From Priestia megaterium NBRC 15308 = ATCC 14581 (GTDB taxonomy: Bacteria; Bacillota; Bacilli; Bacillales; Bacillaceae_H), in contig NZ_CP009920.1 of the NCBI RefSeq assembly GCF_000832985.1, positions 62,001 to 126,000 of the forward strand: DNA of 64,000 bases, written 5' to 3'. Below, one piece after another: positions 14,731 to 18,751 of this stretch; position 1 is the first letter of the stretch, and every line of letters begins with the position of its first letter. The notes beneath the pieces are model-generated. The model was not told where the DNA came from. It searched no databases and saw only the letters and a program-made list of their open reading frames with translations. A program made the position numbers and the translations under genes.

Positions 14731-14848
14731 TTTTCATCATTTTTTCATCAAGCCTCTATATAGTGAAAACTGTGAAGCCAATCATACTTTTTTTCATCGT
14801 TTTACTCCTTAAAAAGCCTGCTTATGACTCTAAAGCAGGCTTTTTTTT
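14731..14848 (+). ncRNA. Solitary sRNA-like unit U0, relative of the 17-kb array
   Basis: It has the same order as the array units: paired TTTTCATC octamers (14731 and 10-11 bp on), a -10-like TATAGT (14759-14764), a body with GAAGCCAATC, TTTTTTTCATCGTTTTACTCC, and an intrinsic terminator GCCTGC/GCAGGC with eight T (14816-14848). The body is the reverse complement of AAGGAGTAAAACG-ATG-AAAAAA. Predicted RNA about 75-80 nt. A minus-strand reading would give a 13-codon peptide MKKSMIGFTVFTI, but the T run fixes the plus strand as the transcribed one. Confidence 0.6.
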
Positions 14849-14971
14849 ATATGGTGAAACGAGTAATTAAGCCGTCTATCCCCACTAATTGTGCATAGTA
14901 AGGTATAATTAAAGATAGTTTCACTTTTCTAAAGTGAGAAATACATATGAGGCATCAAAGGAGACATGCAA

Positions 14972-16653: not shown

Positions 16654-17128
16654 GATGTGCACCTTGTTTACGTGCAAACCATGTTAAAATGATGCCAATA
16701 AGCAGCATTAAACATGCAAGTACATTCCACGTAATGTCGTAAGGTGCAATCTTCACTCCGTACCGGATTTGATGAAGTCCCATAAGCTTGTGCTGCACGA
16801 TCCCGTCATAAAGCTGAAACGCCCCGGCTCCAAGCAATACTCCTCCTATCCACCTTTTCACCCACCAGCCGCCTCGGCGCCTTAGATCTGCCACTATAAA
16901 AAGTGATGCAATCGTAGCGAACCAGCTGAATGCATGAAACAAACCGTCCGACACTAAACCAGCGGCCGTTGAGGACTTATCATAAAAATGATGCCAATGA
17001 AGCAGCTGATGAAACACTGCTTCATCAATAAAGGCAACTAACCCTACGCCAAACAAAAAGCCTGACCAGCTATTTCGAGTGCGATGAACCACGCGCTGAT
17101 TTGCAGTTGCTTCGTGTTTCTTTTCCAT
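16646..17128 (-). CDS. DUF2243 family membrane protein
   Basis: Codes for 160 residues with four membrane segments and many histidines (FHQLLHWHHFYDK, FHAFSWF, QHKLMGLHQIRYGV). This is the DUF2243 family; members usually sit next to ctaG, as here, and the His-rich faces suggest a metal or heme-related role in oxidase biogenesis. That is inference from context. It is the first gene of the two-gene operon and has GGGAGG upstream. Confidence 0.85.
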   Translation of the reverse strand: MEKKHEATANQRVVHRTRNSWSGFLFGVGLVAFIDEAVFHQLLHWHHFYDKSSTAAGLVSDGLFHAFSWFATIASLFIVADLRRRGGWWVKRWIGGVLLGAGAFQLYDGIVQHKLMGLHQIRYGVKIAPYDITWNVLACLMLLIGIILTWFARKQGAHHD

Positions 17129-17241
17129 ATATATACCTCCCTGGCAGCTCTTTAAGTTTATATCGATTCTAATGTACGTATACCCTATTAAAGAGAAATG
17201 AATCTATAATATGGAAAAATAGGAACTATATCCTAATATCG

Positions 17242-17360
17242 TTTTCACCATCTTTTCACCATAAAGGTATAGGATAGTACTTACGAAGCCAATTAGCATA
17301 TTTTTTTCATAGTTTTACTCCCTTTCTAAAGACCTGTTTCCCCAAAGCAGGTCTTTTTTA
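17242..17360 (+). ncRNA. sRNA-like unit U1
   Basis: Octamers TTTTCACC at 17242 and 17253, -10-like GATAGT in AGGATAGTAC, body with CGAAGCCAATTAGCATA and TTTTACTCCCTTTCT, terminator GACCTG/CAGGTC around a TTTCCCCAAAG loop, then T. The body is complementary to AAAGGGAGTAAAACT-ATG-AAAAAA. Confidence 0.65.
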
Positions 17361-17373
17361 TATCCCGCTTCTC

Positions 17374-17491
17374 TTTTCACCATTTTTTCACCATAAAGGT
17401 ATAGGATAATACTTGCGAAGCCAATTAGCATATTTTTTTCATAGTTTTACTCCCTTTCTAAAGACCTGTTTCCCCAAAGCAGGTCTTTTTT
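17374..17491 (+). ncRNA. sRNA-like unit U2
   Basis: Same structure as U1, with the better -10 GATAAT. Anti-ribosome-site segment ACTCCCTTTC; terminator GACCTG/CAGGTC. Confidence 0.65.
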
Positions 17492-17505
17492 ATATCCCGC
17501 TTCTC

Positions 17506-17623
17506 TTTTCACCATTTTTTCACCATAAAGGTATAGGATAATACTTGCGAAGCCAATTAGCATATTTTTTTCATAGTTTTACTCCTTTGTGAAGACCTGC
17601 TTCCCCAGAGCAGGTCTTTTTTT
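17506..17623 (+). ncRNA. sRNA-like unit U3
   Basis: -10-like GATAAT; anti-ribosome-site segment is ACTCCTTT, the exact complement of AAAGGAGT; terminator GACCTGC/GCAGGTC with seven T. Confidence 0.65.
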
Positions 17624-17637
17624 ATATCCCGCTTCTT

Positions 17638-17753
17638 TTTTCATCATTTTTTCACCATAAAGGTATAGGATAGTACTTGCGAAGCCAATTAGCATATTTT
17701 TTTCATAGTTTTACTCCTTTTGAAGATCTGCTTCCCCAGAGCAGGTCTTTTTT
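17638..17753 (+). ncRNA. sRNA-like unit U4
   Basis: First octamer changed to TTTTCATC; -10-like GATAGT; anti-ribosome-site segment ACTCCTTTT; terminator GATCTGC/GCAGGTC keeps pairing through a G-U pair. Confidence 0.65.
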
Positions 17754-17767
17754 ATATCCCGCTTCTC

Positions 17768-17884
17768 TTTTCATCATTTTTTCACCATAAAGGTATAGGA
17801 TAGTACTTGCGAAGCCAATTAGCATATTTTTTTCATAGTTTTACTCCTTTTGAAGATCTGCTTCCCCAGAGCAGGTCTTTTTTT
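17768..17884 (+). ncRNA. sRNA-like unit U5
   Basis: Nearly identical to U4, including the TTTTCATC octamer and the GATCTGC/GCAGGTC terminator. Confidence 0.65.
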
Positions 17885-17898
17885 ATATCCCGCTTCTC

Positions 17899-18018
17899 TT
17901 TTCATCATTTTTTCACCATAAAGGTATAGGATAGTACTTACGAAGCCAATTAGCATATTTTTTTCATAGTTTTACTCCCTTTCTAGTGACCTGTTTCCCC
18001 AAAACAGGTCTTTTTTTA
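17899..18018 (+). ncRNA. sRNA-like unit U6
   Basis: TTTTCATC octamer, -10-like GATAGT, anti-ribosome-site ACTCCCTTTCT as in U1; terminator arms GACCTGTTT and AAACAGGTC around a CCCCA loop, then T. Confidence 0.65.
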
Positions 18019-18039
18019 TTTTTTCTAAAAGCTTCCATC

Positions 18040-18152
18040 TTTTCACCGTTTTTTCACTTTTCTTTTGTATACTAAGTTTGTCAAAGCAATTTCATCATTT
18101 TTCATAAATGACCCCTATTTATTCCCCGCTTTTTGTGAGCGGGGCTTTTTTT
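18040..18152 (+). ncRNA. sRNA-like unit U7 (second subfamily)
   Basis: Octamers TTTTCACC and TTTTCACT, a TATACT -10 (18068-18073), and a different body, TCATCATTTTTCATAAATGACCCCT. Its complement is AGGGGTCATTT-ATG-AAAAATGATG, again a ribosome site and start codon. Terminator CCCCGC/GCGGGG at 18124-18144 with seven T. Confidence 0.6.
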
Positions 18153-18198
18153 GTAAGAAAAGCATCTTTTCACCTTATTTTTTAAAAAAGCTTTTCTC

Positions 18199-18310
18199 TT
18201 TTCACCGTTTTTTCACTTTTCTTTTATATACTGTTCTTGTCAAAACAATTTCATCATTTTTCATAGATGTACCCTATTTGCACCCGCTTCTTGGAAGCGG
18301 GACTTTTTTT
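18199..18310 (+). ncRNA. sRNA-like unit U8 (second subfamily)
   Basis: Octamers TTTTCACC and TTTTCACT, TATACT -10, body TCATCATTTTTCATAGATGTACCCT, complementary to AGGGTACATCT-ATG-AAAAATGATG. Terminator CCCGCTTC/GAAGCGGG at 18283-18301 with seven T. Confidence 0.6.
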
Positions 18311-18320
18311 GTTTCCATAC

Positions 18321-18352
18321 AAAAAAGCTTAACCCGGAGGTTAAGCTTTTTT
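18321..18352. terminator. Intrinsic terminator of the bdbC operon
   Basis: AAAAAAGCTTAACC pairs with GGTTAAGCTTTTTT around CGGA. The right arm includes the bdbC stop codon. Confidence 0.88.
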
Positions 18353-18751
18353 CGCCTGCTTGCGAAGAACAAGCATCATAATTGTAATGATAGTAAACGC
18401 AATAAACGCTAAAAAAGGAATGGTGATAAATCCAAGCCAGTTAATATATTGACCTGAGCAAGGAACACCGCTTGTACACGTTTCAAATGCTTTAAGAGCC
18501 GGTATCTTCTGCAGGCAATAATGATAGCCTGAAAGCGTCATACCAATCACTGAAAACGGCAGGACGTATTTGTAGATGAACGTATCATTCCGATACACGG
18601 CTACACCTAGCACAATCGCGAGCGGATACATTAAAATTCGCTGATACCAGCAAAGTTCACACGGAATAAAGTGAAGAACTTCACTAAACGTCAAGCTTCC
18701 AAGCATCGCGATAAGCGCTGTAATCCACCCGAAGACCAAAGACTTGTTCAT
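18341..18751 (-). CDS. bdbC: BdbC, DsbB-type thiol-disulfide oxidoreductase
   Basis: Codes for 136 residues with four membrane helices. The first extracellular loop holds CELC (Cys31, Cys34) followed by WYQR, the second holds Cys92 and Cys98 (TCTSGVPCSG). These two pairs pass electrons from BdbD to quinone, re-oxidising BdbD. The start codon shares a base with the stop of bdbD (TAATG), with AAGGAG upstream, so the two proteins are made together. Confidence 0.93.
   Translation of the reverse strand: MNKSLVFGWITALIAMLGSLTFSEVLHFIPCELCWYQRILMYPLAIVLGVAVYRNDTFIYKYVLPFSVIGMTLSGYHYCLQKIPALKAFETCTSGVPCSGQYINWLGFITIPFLAFIAFTIITIMMLVLRKQAKKA

Follow-up and report, generated by a model that had tools for sequence, protein, structure and literature searches.

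What is the task of a tandem row of short units, each of which looks like a complete transcription unit of its own, in the genome of Priestia megaterium, a soil bacterium in use as an industrial secretion host? The row occupies positions 17242-18310 of the window, by which the whole analysed stretch of 64,000 nucleotides from strain NBRC 15308 = ATCC 14581 (contig NZ_CP009920.1, positions 62,001 to 126,000 of the forward strand) is meant, and its eight units are referred to as U1 to U8. An interpretation from the letters alone, here called the sequence-only reading, had considered them an array of small RNAs (sRNAs) with bodies complementary to translation starts; as a small-RNA array the locus has stood up to analysis, while a ninth unit, U0, the regulon to which the units belong and their likely regulator had been overlooked. 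The units probably represent a real and new sRNA family, similar in design to what is already known, and it is considered likely, with some room for doubt, that the nine-unit array encodes stress-driven, two-component-controlled sRNAs which mask translation starts.

The letters between 17242 and 18310 resolve U1-U6 as six copies of approximately 138 nt with a spacing of 130-132 nt, and U7 and U8 as two copies of 105 nt positioned 159 nt apart. Every unit displays the same succession of elements, namely paired TTTTCAYY boxes with starts 11 bp apart, 9 nt, a -10-like hexamer (TAGGAT in U1-U6, TATACT in U7-U8 and TATAGT in U0), a body, and finally terminator and T run on the plus strand; the eight units perceived in the sequence-only reading are real, and U0, found by a whole-genome BLAST with one unit 2.5 kb upstream of the array (C6:76731-76847), adds a ninth. 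Written as TTTCAYY-N4-TTTCAYY, the paired boxes are present in all nine units. Terminator-like sites in 16800-18700 number nine, eight of them on the plus strand within the array, compared to an average of 1.3 in shuffles of the stretch. Equally, the pattern of an octamer followed after 30-58 nt by TTTTCATNNTTTTACTCC occurs 14 times in the window, through two octamers per unit in seven units, and 100 shuffles yielded no match. The anti-start body described for U1-U6 is confirmed, with exact complementarity to AAAGGGAGTAAAACTATGAAAAAAATATG in U1, U2 and U6 and to its AAAGGAG form in U3-U5, and each U1-type body contains one CUCC(C); in addition, U7 and U8 carry an anti-start-like body of a different type, complementary to AGGGGTCATTT-ATG-AAAAATG and AGGGTACATCT-ATG-AAAAATG, respectively. 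On the other hand, the C-rich terminator loop (CCCC), once proposed as a second binding site, is confined to U1-U6 and absent from U0, U7 and U8, and is thus not a family-wide trait. A sigma-70 scan recovered no plus-strand promoter within the array, presumably owing to a poor -35 element, and only one weak minus-strand match (9 of 12) in U3 (17593-17564), the total of two matches lying below a shuffled mean of 4.6. In the window, Rfam 15 gave no match at the gathering score; at E<=1, 17 matches fell within 17200-18340, all below the cut-off and headed by anti-hemB with 34.4 of the 49.5 bits.

Predicted folds, obtained for seven of the nine units (all but U2 and U5), contain the terminator hairpin in each case, and in U1, U4 and U6 the body is essentially unpaired with little besides the terminator being formed, while U7 and U8 show short pairings that amount to a short hairpin in U7. 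Across 16 units the nine pairs of the terminator stem are paired in 95.8% of cells, and 13 cells are altered on both sides compared to 2.8 in shuffles, in a test comprising five measures of which two were unremarkable. With terminators in all folds, an unpaired body in three of them and conservation across species, the plus-strand small-RNA array gains in substance. That the body resembles the antisense of a start region beyond its base composition can equally be seen when, over 100 sampled genes, the mean duplex energy 150 nt inside the gene is subtracted from that at the start and 50 dinucleotide shuffles serve as reference. Start preference amounted to -4.84 kcal/mol for U0, -4.80 for U1, -4.99 for U4 and -3.13 for the diverged unit G003w, with none of the 50 shuffles as low in any case. 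Start mimicry is thus strong in the cores of U0 and the U1-type units, and U7 and U8 show it only weakly.

With the first covariance model, R1, the family was detected in eight of ten Priestia genomes. The full array is present in five of the ten, with 6, 4, 3, 5 and 4 U1-type copies and exactly one each of U0, U7 and U8 in every array genome, and the U1-type core is almost invariant across the five species. As a separate observation, the U7-U8 region (18040-18312) is single-copy and near-invariant in the five array genomes and the U1-type copies range from 3 to 6, as if the two groups evolved under different rules. Diverged units occur once each in G002 and G004, twice in G006, and as one extra unit each in G003 and G007; the succession U-run - (C/U)AU - AGAU - N3 - C-run is retained in four of these six loci, the G007 locus being slightly altered, and the UAU of diverged cores could pair with AUG through G-U wobble. 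A search with a second model, R2, in 299 genomes of the order (117 genera) found the family in seven genomes, all of them Priestia, and none outside, under stricter filters by which weak matches may be lost. R2 also delivered one further weak locus in G009. Among nine stretches retrieved by a scan of named genomes, two belong to P. aryabhattai B8W22 and the other seven (Pedobacter, Acinetobacter and metagenome bins) are taken as chance; a plasmid search for the array gave no match. Next to three diverged units, in L146, L147 and L149 (G002, G004 and G006), lies a small convergent gene (DUF6376 in L146), and these small genes begin with GGAGG-N-ATGAAAAAATGG, or ATGATGAAAAAATGG in G006, the type of start with which the core could pair.

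The promoter pattern TTTCAYYN4TTTCAYYN9TANNNT connects the units to a larger regulon. In the 5.75 Mb genome it occurs at 23 exact sites, namely the nine sRNA units and 14 others, one of which (C6:1657656) is located inside a gene and was excluded from the letter table, which covers the remaining 13 of the 14; at zero to one mismatches, 33 sites compare to 10 for the reversed pattern. Behind the non-sRNA sites are found an acyltransferase followed by a PrsA-type peptidyl-prolyl isomerase (PPIase), a sulfatase-domain protein judged LtaS-like by eye, a YceG gene together with three TerD genes, ApbE accompanied by a ferric-reductase-like membrane protein, DUF4405, YtxH, YibE/F and GT87-like proteins, and a secreted protein whose PASTA match stays below threshold. 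This regulon can be read as an envelope and redox set. Several observations at the margin of the regulon stand on their own. Three one-mismatch matches (L043, L053 and L059 at C6:262669, 3949299 and 4730094), which were not counted in it, are near-identical copies of TTTTCATGTTTTTTACATAATGnCTTTTTAA that resemble the promoter pattern and appear to form a separate repeat family. At L052/L091 (C6:3785614-3785647, minus strand) a one-mismatch site is followed within approximately 80 nt by a T-run hairpin with no gene call between, perhaps an additional small RNA of the regulon without anti-start core. Three similar small proteins starting with MILKAL and ending in IY (L101 7195-7395, L101 9776-9976 and L105 4938-5120) lie beside the LtaS-like gene or behind a promoter site, and the paired-octamer sites L019 and L020 fall inside genes.

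Which regulator might recognize the box? Behind the site-bearing acyltransferase/PrsA-like pair, an OmpR-type response regulator (RR) gene (C6:4199107-4199781, L108) is followed by a histidine kinase (HK) gene, and in G006 the site is followed by a PrsA-like gene and then the same RR/HK pair, with a regulator 87% identical. A stricter site pattern has 32 places in 17 of 199 genomes, representing 10 of 97 genera, compared to three places for the reversed pattern; several of the strict sites outside Priestia fall inside genes. In three f17 genomes, the site precedes an operon of a secreted protein, a small membrane protein, ApbE, a ferric-reductase-like protein, RR, HK and a small protein (ApbE and ferric reductase checked by Pfam in L223), in which RR and HK are 54% and 38% identical to the L108 pair over near full length, compared to 29% for the CssR-like paralog. 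A search for the RR at E<=1e-50 matched in 41 of the 199 genomes, 36 of them outside Priestia, and from these 36, eight loci were taken by regulator homology (60-77% identity). Exact sites, one or two each, are present at seven of the eight loci, before the RR gene or at genes adjoining the pair, and the eighth has a near match directly before the RR. These 11 exact sites in 90,336 bases compare to none in G000 stretches that total 400,000 bases, and both controls for the loci, the reversed pattern and 100 Markov resamplings, gave none. According to Pfam, six of the eight loci contain PspA, one contains HtrA-type protease domains and one ApbE.

Co-occurrence of site and RR points in the same direction. 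At E<=1e-65, 12 of the 199 genomes have both, five the site only, 20 the RR only and 162 neither (Fisher 1.4e-7), and without Priestia the numbers are 7, 5, 20 and 160 (p=2.5e-4), in a test which ignores relatedness and thereby inflates significance; the cut-off was picked afterwards, with all five cut-offs tried giving p<=0.0084. Furthermore, the two Priestia genomes without the sRNAs, G005 and G008, are also without the RR at E<=1e-50, and of the eight sRNA-bearing Priestia genomes, the five contained in the RR sample all possess it. The OmpR-type two-component system at C6:4199107 is therefore the likely regulator of the array, because the box adjoins its genes in other genera (seven of the eight loci), together with PspA-, HtrA- and ApbE-type genes. 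The PspA, HtrA, PrsA-like and LtaS-like genes suggest envelope stress as the signal. As an observation in its own right, L229 (8026-10397), from another genus, presents, behind the regulator genes, an HtrA-type gene and a secreted protein which both bear the site; the secreted protein shares 34% identity with its site-bearing counterpart in the genome of the window (L112).

Taken together, these findings can be assembled into a model. Nine plus-strand genes, U0 to U8, each with promoter and terminator of its own, would give rise to small RNAs of approximately 75-80 nt. The TTTCAYY-N4-TTTCAYY box positioned 9 nt before the -10 element is the predicted binding site of the OmpR-type response regulator, which in relatives appears to control itself and envelope-protection genes (PspA, HtrA and ApbE) and whose box in Priestia also precedes PrsA-like, LtaS-like and TerD genes. 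Upon envelope or redox trouble sensed by the kinase, the regulator might fire the sRNA promoters together, and the bodies would keep ribosomes from entering selected mRNAs by pairing across their Shine-Dalgarno sequence and start codon. A higher dose would follow from the tandem copies, and a wider target set from the three body types (U0, U1-U6 and U7-U8). Candidate regulator, box and 23-site regulon are directly accessible to testing in P. megaterium.

Several observations weigh against this model. Concerning the RNA, part of the core of U0 and U3 is taken up by a 5' helix of 6-7 pairs in the predicted folds; in the terminator stem, four pairs with both sides altered compare to 2.2 in shuffles and are equalled by 30 of 500, and the eight pair types compare to 8.1. 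The start preference of U7 and U8 is matched by 14 and 4 of 50 shuffles, that of the diverged units G004w and G006b by 6 of 50 each, and the core is not matched by G006a, one of the diverged Priestia loci. Concerning the regulator, the two-component genes of G000 are without an exact site of their own and preceded by a separate -10-like sequence, three of the eight RR loci came from genomes already known to hold the site elsewhere, five of the 17 strict-site genomes are without a close regulator, and relatedness, as stated, inflates the association. Concerning the targets, a wobble-aware pattern with at most one mismatch had 102 matches in the ten genomes, 26 of them inside units, and the 76 outside units exceed the 49 of the reversed control by little; equally, the U1 duplexes with two conserved candidate starts, of a phosphotransferase system (PTS) EIIBC gene (-29.6 kcal/mol) and a YheC/D-like gene (-27.6 kcal/mol), are equalled by 13 and 22, respectively, of 430 sampled starts.

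Because 13 and 22 of 430 starts bind U1 equally well, no target is established, as none stands out by pattern or duplex energy, the two means by which targets were sought. The 430 genes came from a simple caller applied to 464 kb (the window and 20 further stretches), and a crude rule assigned 44 of them as exported-type and 294 as cytosolic. In this sample exported-type starts are not clearly better bound than cytosolic ones (uncorrected p=0.11 for U1, 0.15 for U4, 0.08 for U7, 0.50 for U8 and 0.04 for U0), which leaves a class-wide bias towards mRNAs of exported proteins unsupported. A narrower form of the start-masking model, rather than its opposite, is that these stress-driven sRNAs are dedicated to a single mRNA or to a few, whose imprint is seen in the start-like look, an explanation to which somewhat less than an even chance is given. 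It finds support in the nearly invariant U1-type core of the five species and in three start-codon matches that occur in all five array genomes with no such match in the other five Priestia genomes, namely those of the YheC/D-like ATP-grasp gene and the PTS EIIBC gene, read in five genomes each, and of a third gene read in two. However, the five array genomes are closely related and conservation is to be expected, the absence elsewhere is at the level of the pattern and not of the ortholog, the cores of U0, U1-U6 and U7-U8 differ, and neither the unexceptional duplex energies nor the 76 matches against 49 favour dedicated targets. Widening the scope instead, the nine RNA genes could act as a broad anti-start brake and flood the cell under envelope stress with RNA matched to GGAG-N7-AUG-AAA-AAA. 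This seems rather unlikely; if true, initiation would be lowered on many mRNAs together, tuning total protein flow and not one or few dedicated targets.

Other explanations dispense with the start-masking RNA or with its regulator. Transcription of the minus strand would yield short peptides (MKKIC, MKKYANWL... and MKNDEI...), as a Shine-Dalgarno sequence, a 7-nt spacer and ATG are present there by construction, a 20-codon frame in U7 and U8 persists throughout the five array genomes, and the weak promoter match in U3 has this orientation. However, the frame of the U1-type units flips with the number of A residues, seven giving MKKIC and six MKKYANWL..., that is, 5 or 16-17 codons, with both forms inside one genome in G001, G007 and G009, and the frame opposite the U0 core encodes other peptides. 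Minus-strand coding is unlikely because paired boxes and terminator point the other way, the -10 element and the T runs agreeing with the plus strand, and this alternative, named in the sequence-only reading as one that would overturn it, is with frame shifts among copies and species weak for U1-type units; on the whole hardly any credence is given to it. Equally little is given to the view that the units are titration decoys whose boxes and not RNA matter by soaking up the response regulator: although 18 half-boxes in nine units are packed into 3.6 kb and the copy number differs between species, body core and terminator, which a decoy does not need, are as conserved as the boxes. Control by the secretion-stress regulator CssR also has to be considered. 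The genome contains genes which we take, by position, to be HtrA-like and CssR-like. Their spacer is without an exact site, its two boxes being 8 and not 11 bp apart, the last base of the octamer is never A in the array, and the site in other genera follows another response regulator, 29% identical to the CssR-like one. Although the octamer is similar to TTTTCACA, the canonical box of CssR (PMC6749698), CssR as the driver of the array is regarded as very improbable. TTTTCACA boxes shared with the htrA/cssR-like promoter of the genome itself, the mark of a CssR regulon, were not found.

The positions of the single units, all on the plus strand of the window, are as follows. U0, a diverged unit (14731..14849) that precedes a YitT-family gene, has octamers at 14731 and 14742, the -10 hexamer TATAGT at 14759-14764, a core TTTTTTTCATCGTTTTACTCC that ends at 14808, and a terminator. 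U1 (17242..17361) has octamers at 17242 and 17253, TAGGAT at 17270-17275, a core at 17301-17321 and a terminator at 17328-17356 with T run; its RNA would start, by estimate, near 17282, with transcript ends being read from sequence features. Octamers, core end and terminator are located at 17374 and 17385, 17453 and 17460-17488 in U2 (17374..17493), at 17506 and 17517, 17585 and 17591-17619 in U3 (17506..17626), at 17638 and 17649, 17717 and 17722-17750 in U4 (17638..17755), at 17768 and 17779, 17847 and 17852-17880 in U5 (17768..17886), and at 17899 and 17910, 17978 and 17988-18010 in U6 (17899..18020). U7 (18040..18154; octamers at 18040 and 18051) carries TATACT, the second body type with complement AGGGGTCATTTATGAAAAATG, and a terminator at 18124-18144, and U8 (18199..18312; octamers at 18199 and 18210) carries TATACT, a U7-like body with complement AGGGTACATCTATGAAAAATG, and a terminator at 18283-18301. 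The array is placed between two minus-strand gene pairs, convergent with a DsbB-like and a DsbA-like gene and, on the other flank, divergent from a DUF2243 gene with a CtaG gene behind it. A G006 unit with the same promoter (L148) also adjoins DUF2243 and CtaG genes yet points towards them, the neighbours being alike and the orientation not.

How does this family compare to known systems? A description of it was not found in the literature searched, in which few subscription papers were covered, and Rfam is without an entry; one Priestia genome paper only counts sRNAs, 115 predicted, in its accessible part (PMC11593290). However, the claim of the sequence-only reading that no family with this design has been described was wrong in kind, as the streptococcal csRNAs (PMC3091779) and the Listeria LhrC RNAs (PMC4132741) share the design. 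Streptococcal csRNAs occur as several siblings per genome under control of CiaRH with a direct repeat TTTAAG-N5-TTTAAG of 11-bp period, expose an unpaired anti-Shine-Dalgarno and anti-AUG region with CAU in 53 of 61 csRNAs as printed, and form tandem pairs in some species, with htrA in the CiaRH regulon (PMC3091779; PMC4211561; PMC8186281). Sibling copies, a promoter repeat of 11-bp period, an anti-Shine-Dalgarno/anti-start body and likely two-component control are common to the Priestia array, whereas genus and response regulator differ, the tandem array extends to up to eight, and the box is TTTCAY: all nine units carry TTTCAYY-N4-TTTCAYY instead of the CiaR repeat NTTAAG-N5-WTTAAG. The unpaired anti-start region is strong in U0/U1-type cores and weak in U7/U8, with the U0 and U3 cores partly paired; and compared to the two-stem-loop layout of csRNAs, the seven predicted folds comprise essentially the terminator alone in U1, U4 and U6, whose fellow units U0 and U3 add a 5' helix and U7 a short hairpin, some Priestia units thus being without a predicted 5' hairpin.

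In Listeria, LhrC1-5 are near-identical copies, four at one locus, that are strictly LisRK-dependent and induced by envelope stress, with a responsive element at about -55 to -75; the RNAs of 111-114 nt contain three CUCCC...UUUU motifs, and a CU-rich motif blocks a Shine-Dalgarno sequence (PMC4132741). Near-identical multicopy sRNAs, two-component control, which is likely in Priestia, and a motif covering the Shine-Dalgarno are shared, whereas the Priestia RNAs have a deduced length of approximately 75-80 nt and, in U1-type bodies, a single CUCC(C), and thus differ from LhrC in size and motif number; an anti-AUG of LhrC is not mentioned in the accessible part of PMC4132741. In Bacillus subtilis, the CssRS regulon combines TTTTCACA octamers with the envelope proteases HtrA and HtrB, and differs in the last base of the box, the spacing and the likely regulator, with no sRNA in the accessible part of PMC6749698. 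Equally in B. subtilis, YclJ targets ykcBC and yngABC (PMC7961091). In G154 (L225 7986-11387) the box of the array is also located before a YkcB - glycosyltransferase 2 - GtrA operon, and the regulator may be YclJ or a close relative. The YclJ consensus is presumably TTCATANTTT.

By its anatomy the array would thus work like csRNAs and LhrC, and by box and length it is a member of neither; the Priestia family probably arose independently of both. What appears to be new is this family with its likely control circuit, the design itself being already known. If the reading of start-masking sRNAs under two-component control is true, a further case, apparently independent of csRNAs and LhrC, has been found in which a two-component system is wired to multicopy start-masking RNAs, which suggests a general solution in Gram-positive bacteria.

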